From a bacterium (lineage in GTDB: Bacteria > Electryoneota > RPQS01): a stretch of 64,000 nt of DNA. Numbering within the stretch: the first letter of the stretch is position 1; each line of letters begins with the position of its first letter. Under the pieces are notes generated by a model. It was not told the DNA's origin. It did not search any database and saw only the letters and a list, made by a program, of their open reading frames with translations. Shown here in pieces: positions 5,601-44,189 of this stretch. A program made the position numbers and the translations under genes. The stretch is from positions 882,219 through 946,218 of the forward strand of contig JAHDVH010000002.1 in the NCBI GenBank assembly GCA_023382385.1, read 5' to 3'.

Positions 5601-6104
5601 TCAGTCTCGAACTTCTCCGGGTGCTGACCTACACCAGTCCATCGTTTCAGGGTCCTGGTCGAAATAGCGGCTAAACCGATCCCACCTTTCAAGACATTGA
5701 GGCCATGCTTCAGCTGGTAGCCTATACATCTTTCGAGACCAGCCTGCCTGAACAAACTTCCCTACCCACACCGACGGCACGATAAAAACCCTTGGTGACC
5801 ATGTTCGTTCCGAACTTTCCCGTAAGTCTACAAACGCATACCAGAGACTCTCGCTGCATCGCTCGACCGCCGATGGACCGACATCCCACTCACAAACCTC
5901 TTTGCCATATCTCTTCGGTCGATGTGCCCATCTTGAGGTCTTAACCTGAATTGACAGCGACGCTGAGCCATTGGGTTCAGCCACAACAATGTCTACACTT
6001 GGAACGTTCCCAAGCGTAATGGCAGCGTGAATCTCCCGGATGCCCAGACAGTATGCAACATAGTGCTGTCCAGCAGCGCCAATAAATTGCGAACGTGCAG
6101 GCAA
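5601..6104 (-). CDS. Small PD-(D/E)XK nuclease-like protein
   Basis: A 167-residue protein with the outline of a restriction-endonuclease fold: an N-terminal helix with GAAGQHYVAY (residues 9-18), then the strand pair PSVDIVV (about 35-41) and SIQVKTSR (about 51-58). This corresponds to the catalytic D...(E/Q)xK pattern of stand-alone PD-(D/E)XK proteins. The second acidic residue is Gln, which several families in this fold also have. The start is TTG at 6104, chosen because GAGGAG lies six bases upstream. It follows the Mrr-like gene by 151 bases on the same strand, at the tail of the DISARM-like operon. A role in cleaving foreign DNA is inferred from fold and location only. Confidence 0.6.
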   Translation of the reverse strand: MPARSQFIGAAGQHYVAYCLGIREIHAAITLGNVPSVDIVVAEPNGSASLSIQVKTSRWAHRPKRYGKEVCEWDVGPSAVERCSESLWYAFVDLRESSERTWSPRVFIVPSVWVGKFVQAGWSRKMYRLPAEAWPQCLERWDRFSRYFDQDPETMDWCRSAPGEVRD

Positions 6105-6255
6105 GAAAAACTCCTCTCTGTGTCAAGCAATGGACTTACTTTGCAGATCACTCGACTTGCCGATGTTACCTACTCTTGATTCACCCGTCGGAGCATATCC
6201 TCCAACCATCCTCTGTCAAGCACAAAGTTGACGACTTTCGTATACTCGCCATCGG

Positions 6256-7233
6256 TCACGAATGCCTGTATGTGGCCCAAGTGATCCCGTTTGAAATTAG
6301 GGCTCGTTGGGCCTCTTCCGCAACTCCTGACCCATAGAATAGCCGAAATAGCCCATCAGGAAGATCAAATGAGAATAGGGCATCTCCATGAATCGTTGTT
6401 GCTTGTTCGGCTCGATACATGAACCAATTTGTTCCACGATAGTATATGGTCACATCCTCCATGGTACGGAGATTGGAAATCACATCCGGTCTGGAAGGAA
6501 CCAAAAATAATGGAAATCCACCTCGAATCACGGCCATAAGCGCCCCACCTATTCGTCTGCATTCGTCTACGATCGGTCGAATTGCATTCCGGAATTCTCG
6601 TATCACGTTTTCATCATTTTCCTCGTCTCCATTCGCAAAGTTATCTTCTCGCATCTCGCCTAGCTTCACTCTAATCATCCTTCGTGCAACGGACAGTTCA
6701 AGTGGAACGCTCTTGTCAGAAGTCCCTCCAAGTTGTTGGTAACTGACTTCTCGAAACTTCTCCAGTAGTGGTCTAATGAACGTCGATCTTGCAAGCGGGA
6801 TTAAATTGCCATCTTGCGCAAAAGCGTAAGTCTCTGCGGGTTTGCTGAATCCAAGATTTGTGAAAATTGCATACTGATAGTGGTATCGACGAGAGGAAGC
6901 GGCAGGTTGTACGGAGCGTGGACACCACCATTCACCCACGTCCTTCAATACACCAACCGCATTTCTTACTATTTCCAGTCCAACTTTGTCTGTTAAGAAC
7001 TTTGCTTCTCCGAGCAACCTTTGTGGATGACTAAACGGCTGCTGAATATCGAAGTCCGCAATTGCATCTATTTGATGAACTTCTCCTCGCCCGCGAACCT
7101 CCAATCCAGATTTGCCGTTCTGAAGTGTTCCATCGTTACCCGCGGATAAAACGGTTCTATATCCAGACTGTCGTAGAAGAAACAGCAGGACTTCCTCAAG
7201 GAGCATTCCACGTATTTGAGCCATACTCGCCAC
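6256..7233 (-). CDS. Mrr-like restriction endonuclease-fold protein
   Basis: A 325-residue protein. The N-terminal third shows a PD-(D/E)XK core: helix MLLEEVLLFLLRQSGY (residues 10-25), then HQIDAIADF (about 53-61) and RLLGEAKFL (about 72-80), matching the E...D...ExK arrangement of Mrr-type nucleases. The rest is mixed alpha/beta without a motif I know and might bind DNA or a partner protein. The start is GTG at 7233, with AGGAG about seven bases upstream; an in-frame ATG lies three codons on. Only 39 bases separate it from the DUF1998 helicase stop, so it is very likely co-transcribed with the helicase-methylase genes and may be a nuclease arm of that module, in place of the PLD nuclease DrmC of classical DISARM. 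Confidence 0.7.
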   Translation of the reverse strand: MASMAQIRGMLLEEVLLFLLRQSGYRTVLSAGNDGTLQNGKSGLEVRGRGEVHQIDAIADFDIQQPFSHPQRLLGEAKFLTDKVGLEIVRNAVGVLKDVGEWWCPRSVQPAASSRRYHYQYAIFTNLGFSKPAETYAFAQDGNLIPLARSTFIRPLLEKFREVSYQQLGGTSDKSVPLELSVARRMIRVKLGEMREDNFANGDEENDENVIREFRNAIRPIVDECRRIGGALMAVIRGGFPLFLVPSRPDVISNLRTMEDVTIYYRGTNWFMYRAEQATTIHGDALFSFDLPDGLFRLFYGSGVAEEAQRALISNGITWATYRHS

Positions 7234-7272
7234 GGACTGTCTCCTCGTAATTATGGGGTTCGAAAAAGGGAA

Positions 7273-10200
7273 CTACTTCGCATCGCCTAATGCCTTCGAA
7301 ATAGTCACAATGTGCTGCCGCATGATTTCCGGATCAGTTAGGTCGCGAGATTGGACGACAATGACTTTGTAGCCAAAGGCTTCCATAAGGCCGCGGAGGG
7401 CTTGATCTTTGATTTGTTGCTGCGGATCACCGTGCAGCGATCGACTCATCCCGTCAAGATAGACAGCTACCTTTATGTCCGAATTGTTCGGATCAACATA
7501 TAACCAGTCCGGGATGGAAATCATGCCATCGGCGAGTCGTACTGTCTCCCGTAATTTGCCTGCTGGAATATGATGTTCGCGAAGTATCTGGGCGAGTTCA
7601 GCTTCAGGTCTATTGGACGGCGTACCCGTGCCCGCACCGGACTCCTCAAAGATAGCGTCGATTGTCCTATATGGTTCCGGTTGGTTTCTCAGCTCTTCAA
7701 GCAGGGCATTTGCCACTGTGCGGTCGAGATGCTCATGGTATACTTGATTGCGATAGGTCAACAAACACGAGTAGCAGGCTTGATCGCAGCTCGCTTTGCA
7801 GTCTAAGACGTCAGCCGCGGCTGTCATGAGCTCATCCCATCGGCTCAGCATTTGATCCAATATACCCGAACCACCAACCATCGGATCATAAATCAGGAAA
7901 TTCACCATCTCGTGCTCATCTGGAATTGGCAAGAGTTCCAAATCCCCGCGGCCCATATCCATAATGCGAGCAGCCGCTGTCCGGAGCGTCTCCCCAATAT
8001 TGATACCTTCTGGCAAGCCACTCAGCTTATGGAAAAGCAGAGCATCGACGTCGGTTTTAGTGGTTAGGGCCAGTTGCATAGGTTCGCGGCCGCACCTTTC
8101 TTGGTGGTGCGCGTCAAATCGCTCTTTCTCTTTGTCCACAACATACGGACTCTTCGCGGCACCACAAATCGGGCAAATATGGAATCCGAGCTCGCCGGAA
8201 CCGGCCTTGCCCGCCTCACCTAAGTTGACAAGTTCGATTCCCTGGCCTCGTAGATGATGGACCTCGTACTTTCCAATCTTGAATGCTCGACCACCACGAT
8301 GATGATCAAGTAATCGGCCTGCTATAAGAACAGGCATTGCAAATCTAAGAACCTCATCCTCTGTAATCCGGCCCTCATGTGCCAGGTCCAAATCTGAGAT
8401 TGGGATTGCGCTGACAGCTTTGAGACCAGACTGCCCATAGTCAACCGTCGCACCGGCACGTGCGACATATTGTTTTTTCGGATCGACGTGAAGGGTAGTG
8501 ATACCGCCTTCGGCCTCTGGAGCGAAGTGGTAACGCGTAACATAGAAAGTCCCCCGATTTGCATAGAGTCGGTTGCCTGCCACGAATTCACGCAAGGCCA
8601 CAGCTCGCGGCCGAGACAATTCAAATCGCACCGGCCCGGACCGGCGTGCAAAGCCAGACAAGGCTGAAGCAACGATGCCGCCCTCGTAAATTCCATAGCC
8701 CGGAAGAAATCCCTCCGAGCTTAGAACGATCAGCGTGTAAGTCGAGTTGTCCCGTTTCACGACGCTCTTGATAAAGTCATCGCATCGTCGAAGCAACTGC
8801 TCCTCTTCCTTTTCAATAAGCCCTATTCTCTGTCGACGCTGAATCTCCTCGCGTGTCTTTCGAGCCCAGCCAAGTCGATCATGAAGACGCTCCAATACCA
8901 ATTGAAGTTCGTCCGGCAGCCTCACGAGAGCCTGTTCAATGCTCTGCATAGTGATCAAAGCGGCCTCGTCTCTCGGCCAATGGGCCAGAAAAAGCCCGTG
9001 TATCTTCTCAACGAGCGAGCTTTTCTGACGGTCAATCGATTCGCCCAATTTATCCATTGACGGAACTGTTGTACGGAAGTGATCTTCGTCATCCAACAGA
9101 TACTCGCGAATGAACAAGGGAAATGCCTCGTTGAGCACCTTCTCAATATGCTCGGCAATATCAGTTCCGTCTTGAGATTGTAGCAGGAGCTCGGAAAGCA
9201 CCGCAGCACGGACATGCTTCTCCAGCATAAGTGGATTTCGAAGATTGAAAGCCGGTGCAGCAATCGATCCGCCAAGAAGCCTTAATGGGTCTTCAAAGAA
9301 ATATCGATCGTGGTTCGCGTGACGGCAATGCGTCGTGATCACAGCCATACGCTCCTGTCGACCCGCGCGTCCTGCCCGTTGCCAATAATTGTTTGGCTGT
9401 GGAGGGACATTTCTCATTAGGACCATGTCCAAGCCACCAATGTCAACACCTAACTCCAGAGTCGGTGTAGCAACCAGGCAATTCGTCCGTCCCTGGGGTG
9501 ACTTGAAGTCCTGTTCGACCTTATTCCGCACCTCGCTTGGCACCTGTGCAGTGTGCTCTTCGGCGTTCACCATCGTGAACGGACGCCGCATGACTGATGT
9601 GTTGTAGTCTTCCCAACTCGGTTCTTCACGAACGGTGGTTCCACCGCAGTACCTTCGCATACACACGTTTCCCGGTGCAGAGCGCGTCGATATCCTCTGG
9701 CACTTCTTGCACCGATGACGTTCTTCCTGAACAGCAATGCGAACCTTGCTCGAATCGATCTGCCCTACATCATGTTCTATCACGTCGCCATTGGCGGTTC
9801 GGATGTCGACTGTTTCCACAATCCCAAGTTTGTTCGTCAATAGCTCCCATAATGATTCGGTTGCCAGATTGAGGTCAAGTGACTGTGAGTTGCTTGACCA
9901 AGCCTTGAGTAGCAATTGTACCAGCGAATTCCCCCGAGAATTCGTCATGCTCCGCCAGTACTTCGCTCTTCGGCCATTTGGCGACCGCGGAGTGAGAACC
10001 ATTCCTTCTGGCTTGAACTCGCGGACCGGTAGCAGTCCTGCCTGGACCCAAGGGTCGTCCTTTTTGTGATAATGCGAAAATACCGGATCGCGATCGACAT
10101 ACAACATACGCCCCCGTCGCCAGGTGTCCAGAATTAGCGACACTCCTTGGACCGCTTCCGTTGGGGTAATTCCGACAATGTTCGCCCACTGTACAACGTC

Positions 10201-12651
10201 AGACTGTTCAGGAGTCAATCCCTCATAATCCACTCGTGCTAACCCCATGGCCTCAAGGATTTCACGTTTGCGCAATCCGGAGGTGAACTCACGGAGGACC
10301 ATATACTCAAGGGCTCTTCCAACACGAATCCACAGGTTCCGCTGTTCAAAGGTCTGATCGGCAAACTCCTCCACCATTTCCGGCAGCAGTACTTCAACTA
10401 ACCGACGCTGACGCTTGAACGACGCCTGTAGCTCATCAGTCAATTCGTCTAACGACAGCGACCGATCGGCACTCCTCATAATCTCATACATCATGTGTCG
10501 CAATCGAATGCGTCGTCCATGATCTTGAATCCAACCGGCTTGAAACGCGGCGTCTTGTCGACTGTCCGCGAAAATCACAAGTTTCTGATGCCCTTTTGGA
10601 GCTGAATTAATCATTGCCTGTGCCAGGACATGTACATCGGCGACGGCTACTGCACGAACCTTTCGCGCAGGTTCAAGCATCCGTCCCCCGATCTTCCGGC
10701 TAAGTGCTCCACATGTGGGACAGCTGCTTAATTGGCCACCAAGGACCAAGACTGGCAGCAGCGGCTTATCATGGCCACACCCCTCTGCCAGACACCGACT
10801 CCCACCAGTGACATGTAAAGCACCGCAAACTCTACAAACGAAGGCTGTCATGAACTTCTTGGCGGCAGTACTTTCCTCATCCTCATCAACTTCATCCAAC
10901 AGCCTGTTTGTCATCACTAAGCGAGTTCCGCTTGGGTCAGCTGCCCACCAGGCACTCGATTCACCGGTAGTTGTTTCCTGCAAGTTCCCGCTTGTGAGGG
11001 AAACTCTGTGTCCGCTGCCTTCAATAATCTTTAGTTTTCCGTAGTTGCGCTCGAAGAAGTGTTGACCACATTCTCGACAGACTGCGACAGGGAATAGTCC
11101 GTCATCATGAACGAGTGGCAGCGTGTCTTTCGCTTTAGATTGAGATGGGAAGAGCTGTAGACTTGTGGTTACACCGTCACCATCCGCGGCAACAACCATT
11201 TCGTCCAGGCCTCGAACGAAGAAATGCACCTTGGGTCGCAACAGAGACTCGCCCGCTCGTCCGGCAGCCGCTCCCAACGTAAGGTAAGCCAACAACTCGG
11301 CGGTGGTTGCCTCACCGGCTAAGCAGCGATTATGTTTCACGGCATTGGAAACTATCCACGCTCCCTCTGCAAGTTCTTGAGGTCGCTTCAGTATCTGCGC
11401 GCACTGGAAAACGTACTCATTACTTACAAGGTGATCGAACAAGCTACCACGCCAATCGTCGCCGGGATTGAAAGATGTTCCTGTAAGCGACTCTACTTCG
11501 GTTATTAACGCAGACACATCAATCGGTTCATTCAACGCGGTGAGCAGCCTGCTCAAGCGCTCCGTTCCAACACCCTGAGGCGGCTCGGGCTTGTAACGGT
11601 TCTTTGGCCACTCACGTTGTACATACGACTCCCCGACAAGCTTCACGGTCTTTTCACCCACGCCGAAGAAACGTGAGGCAAACCGGATCGCAGCCTGTCC
11701 ATCATCTTTCTTGTCCGGATCAGTCAGCGTCGCTGAAGTTCCGATACAGATGACTTCTTCCGCGGCTTTGTTTGCCAGCAAGCGGAGCCGCCTGATCAGA
11801 CATGCAACCTCAGCACCGGCAGCCCCGTCGTAGGTATGAGCTTCATCGAAGACCAAATACTTGAGTGGCGAGCTCGCAAACAACTTGACATCTGGAAGGC
11901 GCGTCAACAGAATCTCGAGCTGGCGATAGTTGGTGATCAGAATCCGCGGCATTCGTTCGCGGATTTCCTCTTCAGAAAGGCACTCCTCGTGCGGAGCCAA
12001 GGCACGAGCTGCCTTATCCCTCTGACGTGCTTCTTCCAGTCGCTTTTTCCGTTCGTCGAGATAGGCCGTTCGCGATGATCCATCGAATCGGTCCACCAGC
12101 GGACTCTGGCCGCTCCTTGGTGTCGAACCGATCCATTGTCCAAATGTGATTCCGGTACCCGCGAGCATCACGCGCAAGCGCTCAAGCTGATCGTTCGCCA
12201 AAGCGTTCATCGGGTAAATTAAGATCGCAGTCAGCCCTTTGAGCACGCTTTGATCACGCTGCCTCAGTAAGTCATCGATGATCGGATAGAGAAATGCCTC
12301 TGTCTTGCCCGATCCGGTACCCGTGCTGATCAGGACGTGCTTGTTTGCCTTGACCGCCTCGAATACTTCCTGCTGGTGCCGGTACATCTTAGGATACCCG
12401 ATAAGTCCCGGCATGACCGGATGCAGCACACCCTTGCTGGCCATGTCCGCAATCGGATCACCCGCCGCGAATGCCTCAGATAAGGTCACGTACGGACCCT
12501 TGATGAGTGGCATGTCCAGCGGCGTCGCGGAACTCAAGAATGCACGTGCCTGCTCAGCAAGTTCCGGATCGGCCATAGGAAAGGCCGACAGCAAATAGCG
12601 CCGGAACTCTTCGGCTACGTTATTGGCAAAGACAAGGGGATTGATGGACAT
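7273..12651 (-). CDS. DEAD/DEAH helicase with DUF1998 and C-terminal nuclease-like domain (DrmA/DrmB-like)
   Basis: A 1792-residue superfamily 2 helicase. Walker A STGTGSGKTEAF lies at 109-120, DEAH (VFDEAHTYDG) near 268 and the C-terminal helicase motif YWQRAGRAGR near 1090. Cys pairs (CREC near 523, CRVC near 605, CPTC, CKKC near 985) suggest zinc-binding inserts. The DUF1998 region ends in the Cys cluster CKASCDQACYSC near 1625. The last 110 residues (IPDWLYVD, AVYLDG, then GYKVIVVQ) resemble Vsr/DUF559-type nuclease folds. DISARM normally carries separate DrmA (helicase) and DrmB (DUF1998) proteins; here one chain covers both, as in MrfA/YprA-type helicases. The ATG lies two bases after the methylase stop, so the genes are translationally linked. 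Role: probably ATP-driven recognition or processing of invading DNA, inferred. Confidence 0.85.
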   Translation of the reverse strand: MSINPLVFANNVAEEFRRYLLSAFPMADPELAEQARAFLSSATPLDMPLIKGPYVTLSEAFAAGDPIADMASKGVLHPVMPGLIGYPKMYRHQQEVFEAVKANKHVLISTGTGSGKTEAFLYPIIDDLLRQRDQSVLKGLTAILIYPMNALANDQLERLRVMLAGTGITFGQWIGSTPRSGQSPLVDRFDGSSRTAYLDERKKRLEEARQRDKAARALAPHEECLSEEEIRERMPRILITNYRQLEILLTRLPDVKLFASSPLKYLVFDEAHTYDGAAGAEVACLIRRLRLLANKAAEEVICIGTSATLTDPDKKDDGQAAIRFASRFFGVGEKTVKLVGESYVQREWPKNRYKPEPPQGVGTERLSRLLTALNEPIDVSALITEVESLTGTSFNPGDDWRGSLFDHLVSNEYVFQCAQILKRPQELAEGAWIVSNAVKHNRCLAGEATTAELLAYLTLGAAAGRAGESLLRPKVHFFVRGLDEMVVAADGDGVTTSLQLFPSQSKAKDTLPLVHDDGLFPVAVCRECGQHFFERNYGKLKIIEGSGHRVSLTSGNLQETTTGESSAWWAADPSGTRLVMTNRLLDEVDEDEESTAAKKFMTAFVCRVCGALHVTGGSRCLAEGCGHDKPLLPVLVLGGQLSSCPTCGALSRKIGGRMLEPARKVRAVAVADVHVLAQAMINSAPKGHQKLVIFADSRQDAAFQAGWIQDHGRRIRLRHMMYEIMRSADRSLSLDELTDELQASFKRQRRLVEVLLPEMVEEFADQTFEQRNLWIRVGRALEYMVLREFTSGLRKREILEAMGLARVDYEGLTPEQSDVVQWANIVGITPTEAVQGVSLILDTWRRGRMLYVDRDPVFSHYHKKDDPWVQAGLLPVREFKPEGMVLTPRSPNGRRAKYWRSMTNSRGNSLVQLLLKAWSSNSQSLDLNLATESLWELLTNKLGIVETVDIRTANGDVIEHDVGQIDSSKVRIAVQEERHRCKKCQRISTRSAPGNVCMRRYCGGTTVREEPSWEDYNTSVMRRPFTMVNAEEHTAQVPSEVRNKVEQDFKSPQGRTNCLVATPTLELGVDIGGLDMVLMRNVPPQPNNYWQRAGRAGRQERMAVITTHCRHANHDRYFFEDPLRLLGGSIAAPAFNLRNPLMLEKHVRAAVLSELLLQSQDGTDIAEHIEKVLNEAFPLFIREYLLDDEDHFRTTVPSMDKLGESIDRQKSSLVEKIHGLFLAHWPRDEAALITMQSIEQALVRLPDELQLVLERLHDRLGWARKTREEIQRRQRIGLIEKEEEQLLRRCDDFIKSVVKRDNSTYTLIVLSSEGFLPGYGIYEGGIVASALSGFARRSGPVRFELSRPRAVALREFVAGNRLYANRGTFYVTRYHFAPEAEGGITTLHVDPKKQYVARAGATVDYGQSGLKAVSAIPISDLDLAHEGRITEDEVLRFAMPVLIAGRLLDHHRGGRAFKIGKYEVHHLRGQGIELVNLGEAGKAGSGELGFHICPICGAAKSPYVVDKEKERFDAHHQERCGREPMQLALTTKTDVDALLFHKLSGLPEGINIGETLRTAAARIMDMGRGDLELLPIPDEHEMVNFLIYDPMVGGSGILDQMLSRWDELMTAAADVLDCKASCDQACYSCLLTYRNQVYHEHLDRTVANALLEELRNQPEPYRTIDAIFEESGAGTGTPSNRPEAELAQILREHHIPAGKLRETVRLADGMISIPDWLYVDPNNSDIKVAVYLDGMSRSLHGDPQQQIKDQALRGLMEAFGYKVIVVQSRDLTDPEIMRQHIVTISKALGDAK

Positions 12652-12653
12652 AA

Positions 12654-15600
12654 TTACTTTTTCCTTCTGCGACCGAATTCTTCTTCCCCAAACAGATTTG
12701 TCGGTATCGGATTGCCGAGCAAGTCCCGGCGAGTTCCGTCCGCATCAACTGTGGTAGCCGCAACTGGAGCAGTAGCCGGTTCGTCTTTAAGATATTTGTC
12801 GAGTTCCTTTTCGCTGCCCAGCAGGGCAATTGCGTCTTGCTTGCAGTGGTCCCAGGTCCAGCCGTGGCGGGGGTCGTCTTCGGCGAAAAGTTCCGGTCGC
12901 CAACTGTGGCAGCCGGTGCGCTTCATGATCAGCGGTTGATTCAAGCCTTTGGCTTTCGCGGCTTGCTCATTGGTGAGTTCCGGAATACCGAGCATTTCGA
13001 AGAACTCATCGTTGGAAAGCTCGGCCGCGGAGTCTGCGGACCACTTGCCTTCCTTCAGTTTGCGGAAGGCGTTGGCCGCAAGTCCGGTCAGGCGTTCGGC
13101 GTAGGGCAGTTGTTTGTCCACGCGCCAGAAACCTTTGGGGTCGGAGGGATCATCGCGCACAATCCAATCGAAGTCATCTGGATCGAGCCCGTACAGGTCC
13201 GCGCACAGCGCATCAATCTCCACGCGTAGCCGCAGCCGGTCCGCCTCTGTCACCGCCCACCACTGCTTCCACTCTTTCTGTTCAAGCTCCGGCAACTCCT
13301 GCTTCAGCTTCAGCCACTCCGGTGCAAAGCGGCGGTGAATGAAGGTCAAGCGTGACAACAATGCGATGATAGTCTCGTGATGGAGAGCAGAATGAGGAAG
13401 GAGTCCCTCTTCAACAATGAACCAATTCACGTTTATTCCACCAAGCTTCGCCCTAAACGTAACATCGAATAACATAGAGCTAACAACACCTGCGAACTTC
13501 AGACATGACCAGAAGTCTCCTTCATTAACGAGCAGGACCGAAGCACTATTCCCGCACGGAACCGGGCCAATTGCTGATCCAATCGCAGTGCGTGTATTAG
13601 TCCCTGAACCTGTCGACATAAGTGCGAATTTGAAGCCTCGGCACCTGTTGTCCGATGAAATGTAGGTGTCTTTAGAAATCAAATATTGCGGCTCGAGTGC
13701 CTTGGAATCAAAAGGAATCTCACGCCACTCTGCACTTCTTCCCTTTCCGCTCACCCAACCCTTCTGCATCGGGTCAAACTGCCCAATCATCCGGCCTTCA
13801 TACAGCGGCAGCGCCACGTCCCCCTTCGGTCCAATCCACCGGCCAAACACATCCGGCTTGTAACCCTGCGCTTCCCACTTCTCCCGCGGCGGAAAGAGCT
13901 TAGAGTCGTTAGTCATATGGAATTCAGTCGCGTATTTGATTTCCCAGCCTGGCTTGTTGTCGCCGATGCGGAAGGAGTGATCGTAAATCTTGCGCGAAAT
14001 TTCCAAGTCGCGCGCCGTGCGCACTTCCGGCAGCGATTTCGAGCGCGGCGAGAACAGTGGAATCAGCGAGCGGTCGAATTCAAACACCGGCGGCTCGCTC
14101 TGCTCCCACTCCGTCACGTCATGCACCATGAACGCGGCCTTCAACTTCTGTTCCCCTCCGTTTACGGGGGGGTTAGGGGGGGACTTCTGAACAATCACGG
14201 CCGCAAACTTGAAGCTTGAGTGAATATCAAAAATCTTCTTCCGGTTCTCGAAGCTGAACAGCCAATCCCATGTGCACTTATCCAGAAACAGCTCGCGCAG
14301 CTCCTGCGTGCCGGAATCGGTGTAAAGTCCGGACGGTACAATCAAGCCCAGCCTGCCGCTCTTGCCTAACAGCGTGTGCGCGATTTCCAAAAACATCTTG
14401 TACGAGTTCAAATCCGCGCTGCCCTGATAGCAAAACGGATGCGGCTGTCCGGCAAATCCAATTCGTTTCCTAATTCTGTCGAGCCACAACTCCTGATACC
14501 CTTTGGATGCCGCACCTTTGGCAAGCGCAACATCGAAAAACGCACAGACTCCGCTCACCCAATTAGACATCGCCTTGAACTGCGCTGAATAGTCCAGCCA
14601 GCGTTCCGCGCATTCAGGAAGTTCCTTGAACAGTTCATTCTGTTGCCGCAGCGCTTCCTGTTTGTCGTAGGTGCGGTAGAGCGGATCGTAGTTGGAAAAG
14701 AACTCATGCGAGTTCGGCTTCATCACCTCCCACGGTGGATTGCCCAGCATGGCGTCGTAACCGGAGCGCGTCGGCGTGAACACATCGGGGAATTCCAATT
14801 CCCAGTGGAAGAAGCGCAGATCGTGGGCGAGGCGGGTGATGATTTCATCGCGTTTCTGTTCCCCTCCGTTTACGGGGGGGTTAGGGGGGGTCTGATGAAA
14901 CGTCTTCGGCGTGGGCACGTGTTTCGCCGACTCGGCATCCATGGGCCAGAACCAGACGGCGCACCACTCATCCATGGCGCGCTTCAGCCGCTGCACGTGC
15001 GGATTTTTCTGCAAGGCATTGTACTCGGCTTCGCGCGCTTCCACTTCCCACGCGCTGAGGCTGTGCAGCCGGTCGTATTCCGCGCGCGCTTCGGCCACCA
15101 CGTCAATCGGCTCCAGCTTTTCGGCGGGAAAGAGCGGAATCGTCTCGCGGAAGTTCGTATCAATCAGCGAGCGCATCTCTTTCTTGATGATGCCGTCGCC
15201 TGTTCGCCGCTTGCCTTCAAACGAACCCTTCAGGAAGGTTTCAATCCGGCTCGTGCGTTCGCCGTCCTTGCCGTCGCCGCCCTCGCGCTCCCATGCTTTG
15301 ATGGGATAATCCAGCACGCGGTCCAGCCAGCAGCCCACCAGCGCGTTGCCGACCTTGATCTTGTGATCCAGAAAGCCGAACGGCAGTTTCTCGTCCATGG
15401 TTTCGACCCACAGCGACACGCGCGCAAACTCCACGGCCAAGGGATTGATATCCACGCCGTAAATGCAGCGCTCCACCACGTGCCGCCGCAGCAGAGCCTT
15501 GACGCGCTTGGCAAACAGATGCCCGCGCTGCTCGTCATCCGGCGGAAACGGCACCAGCTCCTCGCCGTCCGCACCCTCGCGCGGCTTGCCGAAGGGCAGC

Positions 15601-17726
15601 GTGAGCTTGGCCGCCGCGACCGCGTCTTCCAGATTGCAGTGATGCACCAGCGACTTGTACAGCGCTTCGGTAAGATAGTGCAGCGCCGCGACAAGAAATG
15701 ACGCGCTGCCGCACGCCGGATCACAGACTTTCAGGCTGAGAATTTCTTCGGGAGTTTTGGGAGTCTTGTCCGCCTTGTAGCACAACGGCTCAAGCGTGCG
15801 GTGCACCGTGGGTACAGCCAGTTGCGGCTTGGTGTAGAACGTCCCCGAACCCTTGCGCACATTGCCCGCACGCACGAGGAAGAATTCACCGTCGCCGACC
15901 ACGCGACGAATGAGCGTATTCGCAACCTCTTCGACACGCTTGTCAAAGGCGTAGTCGGATTCGTTCCTACGCTTCTTAGGCGCAAGTCCGGCCACCTCAA
16001 CAGCTTTCTTGGCCCAGGCCCGCGCTCGCTGATCGGCATCGAGATGCTCCGCTGAGAAAACTGGTGTTTCGTCAGTCTCGGGCGCGACGGGCTGTGCTTC
16101 TACAGTAGAATCAGATTCTGCTTCAAACAGCGGAGCGGGTTCCGGCTCGACTTCCTCGGCCTCTTCTTCCTCCTCAACTTCCTCACTCTCGCTTGACGAT
16201 TTGCCGGTGGCTTTCTCTTTGCCAAGTTTGGTCAACAGGTCTTTGAGACCTTTCGGATCAGCCGTGAGCATCCCTTCCAATCGCTCGAGCGGCAGCACAG
16301 GCTCGCGACCGATGTTCAGGAACACTTGCGCGTTGTCGGTGGCGCGCTTCAGCTTGTAGTCGAGCAGACCTTCGTAGATGATGCCAATGAACTCCGTGCG
16401 CAGCGCCGTGTAATCCACGGGGCCTTCCACCTCGCGGCGCGTGCGACCGACAATCACCGGCAGCTTGCCGCGCAAGAGCCTGCGCAGAATGCTGTACACC
16501 GTGTGGTCGCTAATTGGAACTTCGCGTTCGAGCACATACAGCGCGCGCAAGACAGGATCGGAATCACTCGCATTGCCGGGGCGGAAAAGCAAGCCGCCGT
16601 AACGCGTGGCCGTGAAATTCGCGTGACGCGAACCTTCGTGCACCAGCCGGAACAGCGCCACCAATCGCGGCCAGGCATATTTGTATTCCACCAGCCGGTT
16701 CTCGCCTTCGCGTTGGCGCTCTTCATCCAGCGTTTCGAACAGCGACTTAATGCTGTATGACTCCGTGTACAGCGCGTCACTGATCGGAAACAGCCCGCGC
16801 GACTCGGCGAACAGACAAACGACCGCGCGCATGACGATGCGAACCGTGGCCTGCAAGAGCGCGTCGTGCACCTCGGCATCGGTTAAACGACTCCCCGCAG
16901 GCGCCGTGTAAATACACTCCAGCAAATCGGTTTTACGCCGCGCTTCGATGGATAAGGCATCCGTCAAATGCTCCACCGCGCGCCTGACAGACTCGCCGAG
17001 CACGCTGGATAAATCTGCTTGCCGCTTGCGCGACTCTTCAACTGCTTCCAGCAGACTGAGCGGACGCGTCTTCTTCGGATCATCGGAGCGCGGCGGATTA
17101 AGCGTGCCCGACGAGAGCAGCTGCTTCAGCCCCGCGAGTTCCTGCTCGCCTTCGCCTTGATCGAACCAACGCTCCACTTCCCACTCGCACCACGACTCGG
17201 TATCGAGTCCGGCGTAAACCAATCGCACCTGCAAACCGTTGATGAGCAGACCCAGCCGATTGCCTGTGCCGCGCAGAAGCTCAAGTAATCTCGCATACGA
17301 CGTGCGACCGCGGCCACGACCGACATGCGGATTCGTATCCACCATGATGAGCAAGCGTGACTCCCCGACTTCCACCGCTCTATGCGGTCGCACCGCTTCT
17401 CGACGGCTGCCCACCTGAAAGACTGCGGTCATCGACTCTGGGAACTGCCCCTGCTTGCGAACATTCGCTGCGAAATAGCCGAGGAATCCTTCAAACAGCG
17501 CGTCTGCAAACTGAAGGACAGCTTTCTCCGTGATCGCAAGTGAGTCTTTGGGTCCAGAGTGAATCGCCGCCTGAAAACGCGTGTACGCTTGCCGCAAGTA
17601 GTCTATGTCATTCCAGCGAATCTTGTCCGGCTGATTGAAGCGATCCACCATGACCGCGGGCGACAAGAGCAGTCCCTGATGACGAAGCCGCGACCACCAC
17701 GCGTGAGCATCGATTGTGGGCTTCAT
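12654..17726 (-). CDS. Eco57I-type N6-adenine DNA methylase/restriction protein (DrmMI- or type IIG-like)
   Basis: A 1690-residue protein. SAM motif I (VCDPACGSASFLVAAL) lies near 665 and catalytic motif IV (LGNPPW) near 995, the gamma-class order of N6-adenine methylases of the Eco57I group. About 600 residues precede the methylase, ending in a very acidic linker (EEVEEEEEAEEVEPE near 515), and a long target-recognition/helical region follows it. In the SNF2-methylase-DUF1998 helicase context it corresponds to DrmMI, which marks self DNA, but it is longer than I would expect. A separate nuclease motif was not identified in the N-terminal part. Two copies of an in-frame insertion (PPNPPVNGGEQK) interrupt the chain. 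The start codon overlaps the SNF2 stop as ATGA. Confidence 0.88.
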   Translation of the reverse strand: MKPTIDAHAWWSRLRHQGLLLSPAVMVDRFNQPDKIRWNDIDYLRQAYTRFQAAIHSGPKDSLAITEKAVLQFADALFEGFLGYFAANVRKQGQFPESMTAVFQVGSRREAVRPHRAVEVGESRLLIMVDTNPHVGRGRGRTSYARLLELLRGTGNRLGLLINGLQVRLVYAGLDTESWCEWEVERWFDQGEGEQELAGLKQLLSSGTLNPPRSDDPKKTRPLSLLEAVEESRKRQADLSSVLGESVRRAVEHLTDALSIEARRKTDLLECIYTAPAGSRLTDAEVHDALLQATVRIVMRAVVCLFAESRGLFPISDALYTESYSIKSLFETLDEERQREGENRLVEYKYAWPRLVALFRLVHEGSRHANFTATRYGGLLFRPGNASDSDPVLRALYVLEREVPISDHTVYSILRRLLRGKLPVIVGRTRREVEGPVDYTALRTEFIGIIYEGLLDYKLKRATDNAQVFLNIGREPVLPLERLEGMLTADPKGLKDLLTKLGKEKATGKSSSESEEVEEEEEAEEVEPEPAPLFEAESDSTVEAQPVAPETDETPVFSAEHLDADQRARAWAKKAVEVAGLAPKKRRNESDYAFDKRVEEVANTLIRRVVGDGEFFLVRAGNVRKGSGTFYTKPQLAVPTVHRTLEPLCYKADKTPKTPEEILSLKVCDPACGSASFLVAALHYLTEALYKSLVHHCNLEDAVAAAKLTLPFGKPREGADGEELVPFPPDDEQRGHLFAKRVKALLRRHVVERCIYGVDINPLAVEFARVSLWVETMDEKLPFGFLDHKIKVGNALVGCWLDRVLDYPIKAWEREGGDGKDGERTSRIETFLKGSFEGKRRTGDGIIKKEMRSLIDTNFRETIPLFPAEKLEPIDVVAEARAEYDRLHSLSAWEVEAREAEYNALQKNPHVQRLKRAMDEWCAVWFWPMDAESAKHVPTPKTFHQTPPNPPVNGGEQKRDEIITRLAHDLRFFHWELEFPDVFTPTRSGYDAMLGNPPWEVMKPNSHEFFSNYDPLYRTYDKQEALRQQNELFKELPECAERWLDYSAQFKAMSNWVSGVCAFFDVALAKGAASKGYQELWLDRIRKRIGFAGQPHPFCYQGSADLNSYKMFLEIAHTLLGKSGRLGLIVPSGLYTDSGTQELRELFLDKCTWDWLFSFENRKKIFDIHSSFKFAAVIVQKSPPNPPVNGGEQKLKAAFMVHDVTEWEQSEPPVFEFDRSLIPLFSPRSKSLPEVRTARDLEISRKIYDHSFRIGDNKPGWEIKYATEFHMTNDSKLFPPREKWEAQGYKPDVFGRWIGPKGDVALPLYEGRMIGQFDPMQKGWVSGKGRSAEWREIPFDSKALEPQYLISKDTYISSDNRCRGFKFALMSTGSGTNTRTAIGSAIGPVPCGNSASVLLVNEGDFWSCLKFAGVVSSMLFDVTFRAKLGGINVNWFIVEEGLLPHSALHHETIIALLSRLTFIHRRFAPEWLKLKQELPELEQKEWKQWWAVTEADRLRLRVEIDALCADLYGLDPDDFDWIVRDDPSDPKGFWRVDKQLPYAERLTGLAANAFRKLKEGKWSADSAAELSNDEFFEMLGIPELTNEQAAKAKGLNQPLIMKRTGCHSWRPELFAEDDPRHGWTWDHCKQDAIALLGSEKELDKYLKDEPATAPVAATTVDADGTRRDLLGNPIPTNLFGEEEFGRRRKK
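14146..14182. repeat. Interspersed GC-rich repeat, copy 1, inside the methylase gene
   Basis: A 37-base sequence of C-run, TTTACG and two G-runs that recurs exactly at 14854-14890. On the coding strand it adds SPPNPPVNGGEQK in frame without disturbing the reading frame. Confidence 0.85.
14854..14890. repeat. Interspersed GC-rich repeat, copy 2, inside the methylase gene
   Basis: Exact second copy of the 37-base repeat at 14146-14182, about 700 bases away in the same gene and orientation. It adds TPPNPPVNGGEQK shortly before the catalytic NPPW region, between LKRAMDEWCAVWFWPMD and RDEIITRL. Confidence 0.85.
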
Positions 17727-20700
17727 GCCAGGTCCTCCGCAGTCGGCTGAATCAGATACTCCACGGCCAGCGGTAAGACGCGGACATCACGGATCGTGAA
17801 GCGTGCAGGCAGCAGTTTCTCAAGACGCATTTTCTGCTCGCGTTCCAAGCGTCGCTTGGTCTCTTCAACATTGAGCTGCAAGACTTCGAGAATCTCTTTG
17901 AGCTCCATCACGCGGCGCTCGCGAGTGACGTTGATATCTTCAAAGAACGTCTGCTGCGACGCAACAACTTCGGCTTCCGTAATCTGCTGCGCGACTTTCT
18001 CGAGTTCTTTTCCGCGTCTGCTTTCATCCAGCGCCTTCAGGCGGATATCGTAGGCTTCCTTCGTGGATTTCTGATTCTTCTTCAGAGCTTCGGCAGCAAC
18101 CTTCTCAAACTGCGTGGCAAGCTCCGATTGGCGTTTGAGCATGTACTTATCAAGCTCGGCCCGATGATCGTCCCACTTTAGGCGAAGTGTGCGCCACCAC
18201 TGATCACGACGCGCTTCCGATTTGATGGGCAGCGGACGCTCCGCAAGCATTGTCTTACGGAAGTCCGGATCAACCACTTGCAGCCGCGACCCTTCAACGC
18301 GAAACACTTCGCTGAAGACTTCATCATGCAGCGGCTCGCGGAGTTCATTCGTCACCGTGATGGTGTAATGCAAAACAGCCAGTGCTTCAAAATTCGATTT
18401 CTGCACCGCGGCGACTGTCCAGCGCCGGATTGGATTCAAACCGTAGGGCTCATGAAGTTGACGCTTTAGAACCGACATGGCTCGCTGCATGACCGGATGC
18501 CCGAGCCGCAACAGAACCTGGTGCTTTTTCAACCGCAAGAGACGCCTGCCACTGATTTCCTCAGTCACCAAGTTCTCGTCGAACACGAGTTGCGGTCGGT
18601 GCTGTCCGCGGCCGACCGTCAATTGCTCCTTAACCAGTGACTCCCATGAAGGTGGCGGATCGAGGTAGAAGAAACCGGACTTGCCCGAAATCGGCGTAAG
18701 CTCACCCTGGCCTTCCACCGTAACAGCAGTACGCAGTATCGCTTCCAATGCAGCGGGTGTGATACCGAGCGCGGTTTGTGTGTGCTCGAGCATTCGACTG
18801 GCCTGCTGATCGGCAGCGATAATTTTGTCTTCCCCCTCCGCGGGTACATCTTCGTTTTCAGAGCTCTGTTTGCGCGCTTCTTCTATTTCCGTATCAAGAA
18901 CAATCAAGTCTGTCTTGCGACCACGGAAGTGATTCTGCAATGCCTGATCGAACACCTGCTCCACGCTGCCCAGGTCCTCGCGGACCGTCTCCACCTTCTG
19001 GGCTACTTTGAGCAAGAAGTCCAAGTCCTCATCCTGATCACAACGAAAGTAGTGAATCTGAACATCTCGCAATTGGCCATGTCGCCAAACACGACCGTTG
19101 CGCTGTTGAAGTTTGGTCGGTGACCAAGGAATATCAAAGTGAATAATCCAGCGGCACTGATCCTGAAGGTTGATACCTTCCGACGCTGCGTCTGTCGCCA
19201 AGAGCAATCTCACTTCAGATTCTTCTGACTCGAACTCCTCCTGAACAGACTTGAATTCTGAAGTTCCCATTCCTCCAAACAGGAGTGACATCGTATTCGC
19301 ATTGAAGCCTTCTTTCAAGAACCGTTGCCGCAGAAATTCCAGAGTCTCTCGATACTCGGTGAAGATAATGAGACGCTCATCATTGCGGAGCTGCTTGCCA
19401 TTGGTGAACAGATTCTTCTTCACCCACTGAACCAGAGCTTCTGTCTTCGAATCTATCAGACCGGCAATCTTCAAATCCTCATCATCGACTTCAATTGCCG
19501 ATCTGCTGTACCCAAGTGCTTCAAGTGCAGCGCCAACCTTTACCTGTGCGGCTTCGAACGCGTTGCGACGTTGACGAAGCCACGCGCCACCGTAGCGAGA
19601 TAAGTCTGCTTCTGCAACAGAGCGCTCTGAATCGTTCGCCGATACGTCTTCGGATCGTTCCGACGCTGTCTTTGTTAGACTGAAAAGGTCTTCCTGTGCA
19701 TCGTCGGGAGTTCTCTCGACATGTCGCCACCAAGTTCTGGCAAATGCAAACGGACACGAGAGCAAGCGCTTCGTCAGAACACTGAACACAAAATGACCGA
19801 TCCATCGCTCGGCAGCAGTTCCGGATTCTTCAAGGTGCTTCTCGCCTGCCTTGCGATACTCTCGGACTGAATCATACAGAGCTGCTTCCTTGTCGATCAA
19901 GTTGATTGGTATTTCAGCAGGAGGCAGGAAGTCCGCAAAGGGAGCGTGTAGCGTGCAACGCTTGATATCATCCTTCAACCGTCGAATCTTCGTGTCCTCA
20001 AGATTGACGTGATCAACATCTGTCATCTGTGGGCGAATTTGAAAGCGCACCGGGTCAAGGAGTTCTAAAAGGCCGGTGAAGCTGACTGTCCGTCCGTTGT
20101 GCGGCGTTGCGGTGAGAAAGATTCGGTGCTCGAATAGAAAACGGATTTCTGTGAGCATCTGATGACGCTGACTGGACCGACGGCTGTTCTGTGGAGCGAA
20201 GTTGTGCGCTTCATCCACAATGAGCAGGTCCCACGGAGCATAGGGCACATCCTTTCCGTTTCCCCGCTCTGCATCCGGTCCTTCACCTGAGCCCTGAAGG
20301 AACTGCTGCCGGATGTCCGCCATACGCAAAAAATCCATGGAAGTGATGATCCGTGGGAACGCCTTCCATGGATTTGTATCCATGCCGAACCTCTTGCGGA
20401 TTTCGAATGTGGAATCGCTATCAACAATCTCGAACTCCATGTTGAATTTCCGCTTCAGTTCAGACTTCCATTGTCGTTGCAGTAGCGCCGGGCACAAAAT
20501 AAGAATGCGGCGAACACGTCGGCGAAGCAAGAGTTCTTGCAAAACCAGACCTGCTTGAATTGTCTTGCCAAGCCCAACTCCGTCCGCCAACAACAGGCTG
20601 ACGCGCGGCATTTGTAGCGCACGAATCACCGGAACGATTTGATACGGATGAACCTGAACCGCAGAACTCCATACTCCGAGCAACGGTTCATGATCGATAT

Positions 20701-21016
20701 CGTTAGCAGACTCAAGTCTATTCAGCCGAGCCCATCGATGCGCATTAACAAACGGTCGAAGTGCGCTCGGATGATCAGGAACATGCTCGCCAATGGTTGG
20801 CAGCGCCGAAGTACCGAGTGCCATCGCTGAAGGCTCCAACTCCCACAACAAAGTCTCGCGTTCTACTTGCTGCCGATCATCGAGGTACTCAATCTCAATA
20901 ATGTGAGTGCGTCCGCTGCCGTCGAGATTATCGTGAGCGCTTACAGATCGGACCGTCGCCAAGCGGTTTCGAATTCGGACAGCTTGACCGATCTCGGGGG
21001 ACTGGACAGTAGTCAT
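17723..21016 (-). CDS. SNF2-family helicase (DrmD-like)
   Basis: A 1097-residue SNF2/RapA-type ATPase from the ATG at 21016. This start is preferred to an in-frame ATG 43 codons upstream because the upstream part reads as low-complexity leader. Motif I is DGVGLGKT near 143, motif II VDEAHNF near 265, and motif VI QQRNGRVWRHGQ near 632. After the ATPase core come about 400 residues with long charged helices (for example RRLEREQKMRLEKL near the C-terminus). In class 1 DISARM the first gene, drmD, is an SNF2 helicase followed by the methylase, the order seen here. The stop overlaps the methylase start by four bases. RapA-like transcription-recycling ATPases share the fold, but the neighbours favour defence. 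Confidence 0.85.
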   Translation of the reverse strand: MTTVQSPEIGQAVRIRNRLATVRSVSAHDNLDGSGRTHIIEIEYLDDRQQVERETLLWELEPSAMALGTSALPTIGEHVPDHPSALRPFVNAHRWARLNRLESANDIDHEPLLGVWSSAVQVHPYQIVPVIRALQMPRVSLLLADGVGLGKTIQAGLVLQELLLRRRVRRILILCPALLQRQWKSELKRKFNMEFEIVDSDSTFEIRKRFGMDTNPWKAFPRIITSMDFLRMADIRQQFLQGSGEGPDAERGNGKDVPYAPWDLLIVDEAHNFAPQNSRRSSQRHQMLTEIRFLFEHRIFLTATPHNGRTVSFTGLLELLDPVRFQIRPQMTDVDHVNLEDTKIRRLKDDIKRCTLHAPFADFLPPAEIPINLIDKEAALYDSVREYRKAGEKHLEESGTAAERWIGHFVFSVLTKRLLSCPFAFARTWWRHVERTPDDAQEDLFSLTKTASERSEDVSANDSERSVAEADLSRYGGAWLRQRRNAFEAAQVKVGAALEALGYSRSAIEVDDEDLKIAGLIDSKTEALVQWVKKNLFTNGKQLRNDERLIIFTEYRETLEFLRQRFLKEGFNANTMSLLFGGMGTSEFKSVQEEFESEESEVRLLLATDAASEGINLQDQCRWIIHFDIPWSPTKLQQRNGRVWRHGQLRDVQIHYFRCDQDEDLDFLLKVAQKVETVREDLGSVEQVFDQALQNHFRGRKTDLIVLDTEIEEARKQSSENEDVPAEGEDKIIAADQQASRMLEHTQTALGITPAALEAILRTAVTVEGQGELTPISGKSGFFYLDPPPSWESLVKEQLTVGRGQHRPQLVFDENLVTEEISGRRLLRLKKHQVLLRLGHPVMQRAMSVLKRQLHEPYGLNPIRRWTVAAVQKSNFEALAVLHYTITVTNELREPLHDEVFSEVFRVEGSRLQVVDPDFRKTMLAERPLPIKSEARRDQWWRTLRLKWDDHRAELDKYMLKRQSELATQFEKVAAEALKKNQKSTKEAYDIRLKALDESRRGKELEKVAQQITEAEVVASQQTFFEDINVTRERRVMELKEILEVLQLNVEETKRRLEREQKMRLEKLLPARFTIRDVRVLPLAVEYLIQPTAEDLA

Positions 21017-21371
21017 AGTTGGGATTTCGGAGCTGTGAAGCAAAGGGAGAGGGTCTCCTGAGTGAGGCAAGGCGGAGCCTAACAGAAGTCGTGAGGACAG
21101 GCTGGACAGAGCCGCGGGGATATCAAGTGGTGCCGATACCAGCAAGTCAATATAATATAACCATTAGCAATAGAAATTTCAAGAACTTGTTTAGACTCGA
21201 TTTGCGAGACTCTCACAGGCATCCAGTACGGAGATTGTGGAATACCAGCCCGCTGAAGGCGTCGGGACTGCGGGGCAATGTTGGTAATTCAATGGTTTAC
21301 AAGCTGCTGTATAGGCGAGGCCTCAATTGTGCGGGGCTCCGGGCGTCCATTCTGAATCAGATTTCTGAAAG
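21017..21371. other. Gene-free leader upstream of the SNF2 operon
   Basis: About 350 bases without a convincing gene. The minus strand carries an AT-rich patch (TATATTATATT near 21150-21160) about 135 bases before the SNF2 start that could hold the operon promoter; no clear -35 could be fixed. Confidence 0.4.
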
Positions 21372-21525: not shown

Positions 21526-24500
21526 CTACGGAAGTCGAAGGTTAAGCTGAAAGAGCTCGACTCTGTCCCGCGTAGATGCGAGAGACTCTGCCTGGGCACG
21601 CAATTGTGCACCGATATTCTCAAAGGAGCCATTCTTCGCAGAAGACTTCTTGCGCTCGTCGCTATTGTCCCAGCTATCGCAATAGAAGTGCGCAACAATG
21701 TACAGTCCTGCACGCACTCTATTCTGAGCCATGTACCGATCGAAGAGCTGAGTCTTCATTGAATTCAGAAGCTTGGGATTCCAACATCCTTTAACTTCTA
21801 AATAGATAACCATCGGCTCAACAGAAACCAAATCTTGCTGACAGAGAGCTTCAATGCGAATATCTGGCTTCTGCCCGCTCTCGCTTCCCATTCGCCTGCG
21901 AATCTGTACTTCACGATTCACAACAATTCTCTTGTCAACAATCCTTTTTATGAGCTCTCTGGCGATGTAATCCGACACATCTTCCTCGTCCTTGGGTCGC
22001 AAAGCCTTGTCTGGAAGTTGATTCCAAAGCGACTTGACTGACGGATATTCTTGATGCTGAATTTCCGACTGAATATCACCCATCGCCTTGATCATGATGT
22101 CGAGCAGTTGCCTTGGAGACTGAACGTACCGATTAGATGCGTTGTCAATTAGCTTGCTGACTTCGCGGGGAGTCATGGGCCGCCACGTGGCCGTTCGAAG
22201 GCGTTCCTTGGTGTCCGCAATGACATACCGAATCCAATCCTGACGTGGGCATTGTTCATGAAGCCTTTCGAGCGTGACGATAGATTCCTCCGATACTCGA
22301 TTGGCAATCTGAGTTACAAGGGCATTCCTGAACGACACCAAATTGTCCAAATTACTTACGCTGTGCGCGCCAATATGTTCTGGATCCTGTTCTGGTGGGA
22401 ATTCCCTCGTAACCCACAAATAGAGCTCGGCAATATCGCTCAGTGGCCAGTTACGGGTAAAGGCGTCGGACCTCTCAAAACGACGCCCTATCGCGAGCGC
22501 AAAAGTTCTGGCAAACTTCCTACTGCGGTTGAGCAACTCTTGCAGGAAGGACCAAGTCACGGTATCCGTGTCAGCGGCCAACGTCAGTACCAATTCGATA
22601 AGCCGCAACTTGCCGGTTTGGCTTCTCGGGAGTTTGTCTTGAATTGCGCCAATGGCCCAAGAGGTGGCCGATTCATGGCCGTGCGAGATCAAGATGTGAA
22701 GGAGCTTCGAAGCAGCACGCGGTGGTGTCTTACTGTCTTTCAGTAGACCAAGCAAGTGGTCTGCGAGGCGGTCGGACCAACAGGCTTTGATACGTTCGAC
22801 ATAAATGACGTCCTTCGATCGAACAACATCCGCTCGTACAAGACGAAGAATCGTGTCAGCGACCAATGTTGGGTTTGATGACTTTGCAAAGTCCAGCAGA
22901 TTGTTATAGGCCTCATGATCGTCGGTGCCGTCCATGAATGCCATGTGAGGTGGTAAGGCAAGGATTACGGGAATCCAACGCAATTGCATTGCGTCGGTGA
23001 ATCTGTTCAATTCCTCCGGCTGCTCTTGAGCAAGAAGAGTGAGAGCGGTACGCCCAGATAGGGCTAAAGACGGAAAGGAGTTTGTTTCAATCCACTCATC
23101 AATCAGAGGATCACTCTCTTTCAGAAAAAGTAGCCCGGCGGCCACAACGCGAGCACGCGTGGCGATATCGGCTGCCCGCCAGCCGTCGGTATTCCGAACG
23201 TCGAATAGGATGCCTGAATGATGCGGGTGTTTGTGCGCCAATGCATACGGTACAAGCCACCAGAACCCGGCATCCTCAGTTTCCGTGCGATTGAGGATAT
23301 CATCAAGAAAAGGTATCTGGGATTCACGCGCGGCTTGCTGCTCCTTTCTCTTTTCTTCTTCCCTGACATGCTCCAGATTCCGGGCCTGTCTCTCACGTGC
23401 GCGCTGTGCTACGTCCGACTTAAGCTCGAGGCCGTTCACTGGATTTCCGAACTCATCGTTCAGTTCAGATACCCTCTGACATACGTCGATCACCTTGCTG
23501 ACTTCATTGATAATGGCAAAGTCAACAGTGTGCCATACTAACATGGAAATAAGCCTTCGCTCCGCCTCCGGGCGGTCTTCCTGAACCAAAGATAAGAGCC
23601 AATCAAAGTCCGAGTTCAAGAGCCATGGATCATTGTTGCCCAAGAAGCTCAGTGCAAGTCGTCCGGTACGAGCCTCTGAACCAGCACAAAGCGGAATTAG
23701 GAGTCGGACTACTTTCCTGCGGTGTGCCTCGTTCGCAAGGAGTGCATCCTTGAACTTATCTGGCTCGTTCCATTCCGAGATGGACAGGTGTTTTTCAAAG
23801 CGCGCGGCCACTGCATTGGCGAAGGCCTCGGCGACACTATCGTCTTCAACATTCTCCCAAGCAAGTTCAAAGACACCCTGCGCCAAGCGATTGTGCCCCA
23901 ATGAACCGTATTGGCCGGGATGCCGAGCCAGCCAATTGAGTGCTGGAACCAGGTGTTCTCTTTTCAGTGAGCGCGGTAATGTCCAAGAAAGAAAGTGATG
24001 ATAATGTCCGATTCTACTCGAGAATCTGTCCGGCGTCAGGAGTTCGAATAGCTCTTTTGCTGTGAGGCATGTTGGCCACATCGCCTCGAGCGCAGAGGCC
24101 TTCAGGTCGTCGTATGGGTCTTCGCCGGACTCACTTCGCGCAATGAGGAGCAAGGTCCTTAGTTCTTCGCTATCTGCGCATTCAACTGCTGCGTTTATGG
24201 CAGCAATACGGATTTCATGCAGCTCACTTTGGTTTAGGGACACTGCCACCAATGGTTTGCCGATTTGTTTGACTTTGCAAGACTGAGCCATGCGAATCGC
24301 GGCGATACGGACACGAGCGTCTTCCCCTTCATTAGTAATGTACCGGTCAAGTTGTCCGGCGATATTCGAGTGATTGAGCTTATGCGCGTGCTGGTCGGCC
24401 TCACTTCCGTACGGTCGAAAGTCCCGGTTGCGATATCCGTCCAAGACCGCATCAACGAGTTTTTCGCGCGTTTGCTGATCGAGTATTGGAAGATCCGCAA

Positions 24501-44130: not shown

Positions 44131-44145
44131 TTTTGTATATTATAA

Positions 44146-44171: not shown

Positions 44172-44189
44172 GCATTCGAGGGCTTTTTC

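Follow-up and report, generated by a model that had tools for sequence, protein, structure and literature searches.

The subject of this work is a five-gene stretch from a bacterium of the Electryoneota, read in a window of 64,000 nucleotides (contig JAHDVH010000002.1 of assembly GCA_023382385.1, positions 882,219 to 946,218). Positions 7273-21145 of this window very probably hold a complete core of ARMADA, a system whose ArmA is a BrxHII/RapA-like helicase, whose ArmB is a PglX-like methylase and whose ArmC belongs to the YprA family of helicases (PMC12458937, preprint September 2025), and the core appears to represent a lineage that stands apart from our references for Type I and Type II, with an ArmA of the DISARM DrmD type and no ArmD. 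Gene content, gene order, intact motifs, homology and the fold of a nuclease domain form the basis of this assignment. The open reading frame (ORF) list of the window contains five leftward genes, the first three tightly packed, in agreement with a preliminary description of this DNA: in gene order, ArmA and ArmB overlap by 4 nt, 2 nt separate ArmB from ArmC, 39 nt separate ArmC from a gene for a 325-aa protein, and 151 nt follow before the last gene, which encodes 167 aa (Table 1). The ArmA ORF opens with TTG at 21145, and an in-frame ATG at 21016 matches the beginning of the family match; the catalytic motifs are complete in all three core proteins. The preliminary description had seen here a DISARM-like operon of possibly distinct subtype. 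This is indeed a DISARM-related defence operon whose ArmA passes the DrmD model, and it probably does belong to a separate lineage, but the operon itself reads as ARMADA, and it is within ARMADA that the separate lineage lies.

Identity of the ArmC helicase

The strongest evidence for ARMADA comes from ArmC. Pfam DEAD, Helicase_C and MZB (MrfA zinc-binding, DUF1998-like) domains lie within one 1792-aa chain, as the preliminary description had noticed, Walker A, DEAH and motif VI are intact, and the same chain carries three CxxC motifs in the barrel region together with the four cysteines of DUF1998. In profile-profile comparison ArmC matched ARMADA Type I ArmC across 1550 columns (E 1e-131) and Type II ArmC across 1654 columns (E 7e-116), whereas the match to DISARM DrmA covered only 69 columns, a helicase motif, at a probability of 54%. 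Against the NCBIfam DrmA model the window protein scored 16.6 bits, where the cut-off is 950. Its top PADLOC match was Druantia DruE, with DISARM DrmA much weaker, and its best PDB sequence match was 9tu7 (2108 aa), which is DruE-like. Judged by these sequence comparisons and by trees, ArmC is a member of the ARMADA/Druantia branch of YprA-family helicases and not of the DISARM/Dpd branch. Published ArmC has DUF1998 in-chain and a predicted active C-terminal Vsr nuclease, with DruE as its nearest relative (PMC12458937). Because the window profile spans ARMADA ArmC but little of DrmA, what had been taken for DrmA and DrmB functions fused in one chain, with a Vsr tail added, is the normal ARMADA layout. 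The helicase, methylase and SNF2 protein thus fall to another defined system, ARMADA, an outcome that the preliminary description had itself named as refuting its reading.

The C-terminal nuclease was further supported by structure prediction. An AlphaFold2 model built from 17 aligned ArmC tails reached a mean predicted local distance difference test (pLDDT) score of 80.7, and the best solved match found by Foldseek was 3r3p, the nuclease domain of I-Bth0305I (template-modelling score 0.73-0.75 on the target, E ~0.009), an entry that the sequence profile of the tail also retrieved, weakly. I-Bth0305I is a homing endonuclease whose nuclease domain is Vsr-like. Residues E1683, D1715, D1733 and H1740 (ArmC numbering) are invariant in 17 of 17 aligned tails; in a further member, L036, the DG...H part of the tail has been lost. 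Model, structural match and conservation support the prediction that the 157-residue C-terminus is an active Vsr-type nuclease. The Vsr-like C-terminus proposed earlier is thus supported by its predicted fold, although not as an unusual extra, as the domain is standard in the published ARMADA architecture.

Phylogenetic placement and gene neighbourhoods

Our Type I references included D. radiodurans MP1 (L017), with the textbook C-A-B order, and Planktothrix (L016), and the Type II references, among them L019 and L022, came from E. coli and Klebsiella plasmids. When GTDB genomes were scanned with the ArmC alignment, about two dozen loci were found at 34-56% best-segment identity, after which identity dropped to 28% and below; a genome scan with the single ArmC protein as query gave no match. 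The loci span Planctomycetota, Chloroflexota, Pseudomonadota, Fibrobacterota, Actinomycetota, Myxococcota, Acidobacteriota, Gemmatimonadota, Eisenbacteria and Cyanobacteriota, plus one archaeon (a fragment, L035). The nearest ArmC relative overall, L009, is 67% identical and comes from the same family as the window genome. In ArmC trees, 21 full-length members including that of the window form a clade, here called clade X, with a support of 100 in the SH-like approximate likelihood ratio test (SH-aLRT), apart from the references of both types. The Type I references also form a clade with a support of 100, and in these trees the window ArmC falls outside it, although a grouping of clade X with Type I was not rejected (see below).

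A second distinction is found in the zinc modules inserted in the OB region, of which two have been reported for Type II ArmC and one for Type I (PMC12458937). Module 1 is absent from all 21 clade X proteins and present in 22 of 23 Type I proteins; module 2 is present in 20 of 21 and in 2 of 23, respectively (these counts are of sequences, not of independent events). Both modules occur in all three Type II proteins and in an unassigned ARMADA-like group.

In clade X, ArmB stands upstream of ArmC, directly or with accessory genes between, in 13 of the 18 loci whose upstream side is reasonably covered, and no ArmA or ArmB was seen within ~10 kb in the other five (L028, L029, L036, L038 and L060). 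The genes that differ from locus to locus, placed in the ArmB-ArmC interval or beyond ArmC, encode FRG, PLD, AbiEi, AAA_21, HNH, McrBC, UvrD/ArmD-like and CBASS-like proteins. An ArmD-like helicase follows ArmC in L036 and L042 only; the window has no ArmD homologue, the two genes after its ArmC being unrelated to ArmD. The A-B-C gene order of the window is that of Type II and also of reversed-order Type I; Type I is reported to be phyletically wider, with the reversed order in archaea and cyanobacteria (PMC12458937).

Several observations were made alongside. A further group of ARMADA-like ArmC proteins (L043-L045, L047, L048, L070 and L014) falls neither in one of the two types nor in clade X, and at least three of its loci have ArmA and ArmB upstream in A-B-C order. 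One clade X core (L104) lies on a 102-kb IMG/VR contig, so a virus-like or mobile element may carry the system. Clade X-like ArmC is split into several ORFs in L042, L038 and the Synechocystis sp. B12 plasmid locus L015, where ArmA and ArmB are likewise broken; these may be pseudogenes or sequencing errors. A Thermus plasmid (L021) carries a Type I-like ARMADA core with an inserted NYN-domain gene; the core adjoins brxL and is followed by an ArmD-related helicase.

ArmA, ArmB and the standing of clade X

The SNF2 helicase of the preliminary description is ArmA. It scores 669.9 bits against NCBIfam NF038317 (DISARM_DrmD), above the curated cut-off of 610, matches the PADLOC DrmD model at 3e-200 and the RapA model as well, and has Walker A, DEAH and motif VI intact. 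The same cut-off was passed by all four clade X ArmA proteins tested (645-692 bits) and failed by all three from Type I (304-379 bits), both from Type II (339-353) and the single unassigned one (465). The ArmA genes of clade X loci form a clade of their own (99-100 SH-aLRT), which is the sister of DISARM DrmD at 99-100 SH-aLRT (99 with E. coli RapA as outgroup). A tree grouping all ARMADA ArmA together was not rejected by the approximately unbiased (AU) test (p 0.093), and therefore both shared ancestry and a retained ancestral form could explain the DrmD likeness.

ArmB is an Eco57I-type N6-adenine methylase, as the preliminary description held (Pfam Eco57I 3e-20), with its S-adenosylmethionine motif DPACGSA and its NPPW motif intact. 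PADLOC gave 1056 bits for a type IIG-like model and 427 bits for DrmMI, and PglX models match too. In the tree, the ArmB proteins of clade X loci form their own clade at 100 SH-aLRT beside those of Type II and unassigned ARMADA, and DISARM DrmMI is placed apart from window ArmB.

The DrmD-type ArmA and the distinctive zinc-module pattern make clade X look like an unlabelled variant of ARMADA, a kind of system known since 2025. We put forward only tentatively, as a possibility, that it is a third ARMADA type, in which a DrmD motor is joined to an ARMADA methylase and a YprA helicase-nuclease, with interchangeable helper genes, among them CBASS-like, McrBC, PLD, FRG, AbiE, UvrD and small nuclease genes, replacing ArmD. 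The alternative that the operon is an ordinary Type I of reversed order, with nothing particular at the level of subtype, we consider unlikely but worth serious weight: the A-B-C order and the missing ArmD fit it, both groups have one OB-region insert, and free ArmC trees join clade X with Type I to the exclusion of Type II (support 89-93), so that a two-way split would leave clade X on the Type I side. However, the reversed-order cyanobacterial and archaeal loci (L016, L018 and L020) fall inside the Type I clade and not in clade X, most Type I proteins retain one zinc module where clade X retains the other, and the two groups differ in the class of their ArmA.

Some observations weigh against the main reading of the operon. 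The type labels of the reference loci were assigned in the present analysis, from gene order and the text of PMC12458937. AU tests (23 rows) gave p 0.24 for clade X with Type I, 0.36 for clade X with Type II and 0.42 for a further alternative; no arrangement tried for the deep branching order of the three groups is rejected, and Bell et al. (PMC12458937) may have filed clade X inside Type I. A BrxA-like helical insert, as expected of ARMADA, was sought in the ArmC region after RecA1, which is helical in a fragmentary model and aligns with Type I and Type II ArmC, and the model of this middle region, too fragmentary for the purpose, gave no fold match. Finally, the window lacks the ArmD that E. 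coli ARMADA II cannot do without, and the mechanism of that system is therefore not transferable whole.

The two nuclease-like neighbours

The small genes that follow ArmC had been described as Mrr-like and PD-(D/E)XK nucleases that appeared to take the place of DrmC. PD-(D/E)XK-like motifs are visible in both (HQIDA...EAK in the 325-aa protein, D...QVK in the 167-aa protein), but neither had a meaningful match in Pfam, PADLOC or NCBIfam, and the nuclease call therefore rests on motif reading. The 325-aa protein has one relative in its phylum, 38% identical, which lies amid housekeeping genes in a same-genus genome (G028) without ArmC; another relative, annotated as a restriction endonuclease, sits in a Priestia defence island. 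The best relative of the 167-aa protein (49%) is in a genome (G013) that also lacks ArmC, and scans of IMG/VR found none for either protein.

These distributions bear on whether the five genes act as one functional unit, with the small nucleases as effectors in place of ArmD or DrmC, which we regard as improbable. All five genes run in the same direction with a short gap after ArmC, an ArmD essential in E. coli is absent here, and in many clade X loci an accessory gene either separates ArmB from ArmC or follows ArmC. Yet no other clade X locus examined has relatives of the small genes, including the 67%-identical sister, which carries a CBASS-like set (SMODS and SAVED domains) on its downstream side, and where relatives occur it is without ARMADA, amid housekeeping or other defence genes. 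Among the clade X loci examined the five-gene order therefore does not recur, the second outcome that the preliminary description had named as refuting it, and the claims that the genes belong together and that the small ones replace DrmC had to be given up. From sequence comparison, the best reading of both small genes is as defence-island passengers, independent of the ARMADA core, although a functional role beside ARMADA is conceivable. A class 1 DISARM variant with DrmA and DrmB fused and DrmC replaced by other nucleases is highly improbable: ArmA exceeds the DrmD cut-off and clusters with DISARM DrmD in trees, and ArmB matches DrmMI models, but the short DrmA match stands against a whole-length ARMADA ArmC match, plasmid DISARM loci keep DrmA and the DUF1998 protein separate and usually have DrmC, ArmB does not group with DrmMI, and the supposed replacement nucleases are not conserved.

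Features and surroundings of the operon

Table 1. Coordinates in the window of the ARMADA core, its predicted nuclease domain and the two downstream neighbours.
Feature	Position	Strand	Basis or remark
ArmA, RapA/SNF2-type helicase of DISARM DrmD type	17723..21145	-	Likely start ATG 21016
ArmB, PglX/DrmMI-like adenine methyltransferase, 1690 aa	12654..17726	-	Pfam Eco57I, PADLOC, motifs
ArmC, 1792-aa helicase of the YprA family; inserted zinc modules, MZB/DUF1998, Vsr-type nuclease at the C-terminus	7273..12651	-	Pfam, profiles, trees
ArmC C-terminal 157 residues, predicted active Vsr-like nuclease domain	7276..7746	-	AlphaFold2, Foldseek, invariant residues
Restriction-endonuclease-like neighbour, 325 aa, outside the conserved core	6256..7233	-	HQIDA...EAK motif, orphan relatives
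PD-(D/E)XK-like neighbour, 167 aa, outside the conserved core	5601..6104	-	D...QVK motif, orphan relative

Just upstream of ArmA and in the same direction, positions 21526-25839 (-) encode a 1437-aa protein with a P-loop (GDPGVGKS), a Walker B-like FFDSVD and, near the C-terminus, a PD...EVK motif, a combination that suggests a STAND-like NTPase fused to a nuclease. It had no Pfam or PADLOC match, and plasmids of Bradyrhizobium and Dolichospermum encode full-length relatives (28%) that carry the annotation hypothetical. The gene at 26048-27715 encodes a Por-type secretion sorting domain, which occurs in well over a hundred proteins of the window genome and its sister. At 31913-33532 the end of a large serine recombinase gene overlaps a tRNA-Gln gene of the opposite strand, which points to an attachment site; a search to the left for direct repeats of the tRNA-Gln end, as an island boundary, found none. 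An integrated element occupies 44034-61592 at the tmRNA gene, is bounded by 27-bp direct repeats at 44057-44083 and 61566-61592, and contains a tyrosine integrase, a type I restriction-modification set (HsdR, HsdS and HsdM), a Schlafen/AlbA protein and a CARF/HTH-like protein. In a same-genus genome, the counterpart of the gene left of the operon is followed by unrelated genes and its contig ends soon after, so that the synteny comparison revealed no empty site.

Proposed mechanism

Anti-phage activity has been shown only for the E. coli Type II system, which protects directly, without cell death, and depends on ATPase motifs in both ArmA and ArmC as well as on NPPW in ArmB, with ArmD also essential (PMC12458937); the Type II reference L019 carries the Walker residues K110 and D234 that were mutated in the E. 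coli study. In DISARM, a trigger loop of DrmAB bars double-stranded DNA and the complex loads onto 5'-tailed DNA (PMC9142583), and Druantia DruE loads onto 3'-tailed DNA (PMC13192584). By analogy, the most likely mechanism is that ArmB methylates host adenines or takes part in self/non-self sensing and that ArmA acts as a double-strand translocase moving along invading phage DNA. ArmC would load on exposed single strands or tailed phage DNA and then move, and the Vsr nuclease at its end would cut or nick the phage DNA, resulting in direct, non-abortive restriction. What is said here of phage defence, of restriction without abortive infection, of methylation and of tailed DNA is carried over from these relatives and may differ in clade X. 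Since ArmD is missing, clade X would work with three genes or use other helpers, and an ARMADA that naturally has three genes and no ArmD offers a test of which set is minimal for activity.

Comparison with known systems

Set beside ARMADA Type I, the window operon has the same three-gene core, a YprA-type ArmC with a Vsr tail, no requirement for ArmD, a single OB-region zinc insert and, as in some Type I members, the A-B-C order. It differs in that its ArmC lies outside the Type I clade of our trees, with zinc module 2 instead of module 1, and in that window-type ArmA is ~1100-1140 aa long and passes the DrmD cut-off, whereas Type I ArmA is ~940-960 aa long and fails it. Type II likewise shares the A-B-C order, homologous ArmA, ArmB and full-length ArmC proteins and a predicted active Vsr domain. 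Unlike Type II, the window is without ArmD (a GajB-like helicase with a RelE-like RNase domain), and its ArmC is without the second zinc insert and the extra C-terminal domains, with ~23% identity between the profiles; Type II membership is ruled out by the absence of ArmD from the window.

Druantia resembles the window operon in its YprA-family helicase, with the same insert pattern, and the top PADLOC and PDB sequence matches of ArmC are DruE-like. Its partner genes are different: PADLOC found no DruH, DruM/F/G or DruA-D among the neighbouring proteins, the window has SNF2 and methylase partners instead, and Druantia III uses PLD nuclease domains (PMC13192584; L022). Druantia was rejected on the wrong partner genes, despite DruE being the best PADLOC match. 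Class 1 DISARM shares an SNF2 protein that passes the DrmD model, with DrmD as sister group in trees, and a large adenine methylase next to it. In true DISARM plasmid loci (L129-L134), however, DrmA and a DUF1998 protein are separate and usually accompanied by DrmC, whereas the window helicase is not DrmA, has DUF1998 in-chain and has no separate drmB beside it; PADLOC and Pfam found no PLD nuclease DrmC among the five window genes, and DISARM membership was rejected on these grounds.

Annotation pipelines would call the three genes a DISARM DrmD, a type IIG enzyme and a Druantia DruE, and the operon would be missed. ARMADA has been proposed as a link between DISARM and Druantia (PMC12458937). 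Clade X, in which a DrmD-type SNF2 protein of DISARM character stands beside a main helicase that is plainly of ARMADA, would be an intermediate that could show how modules are exchanged between these systems.

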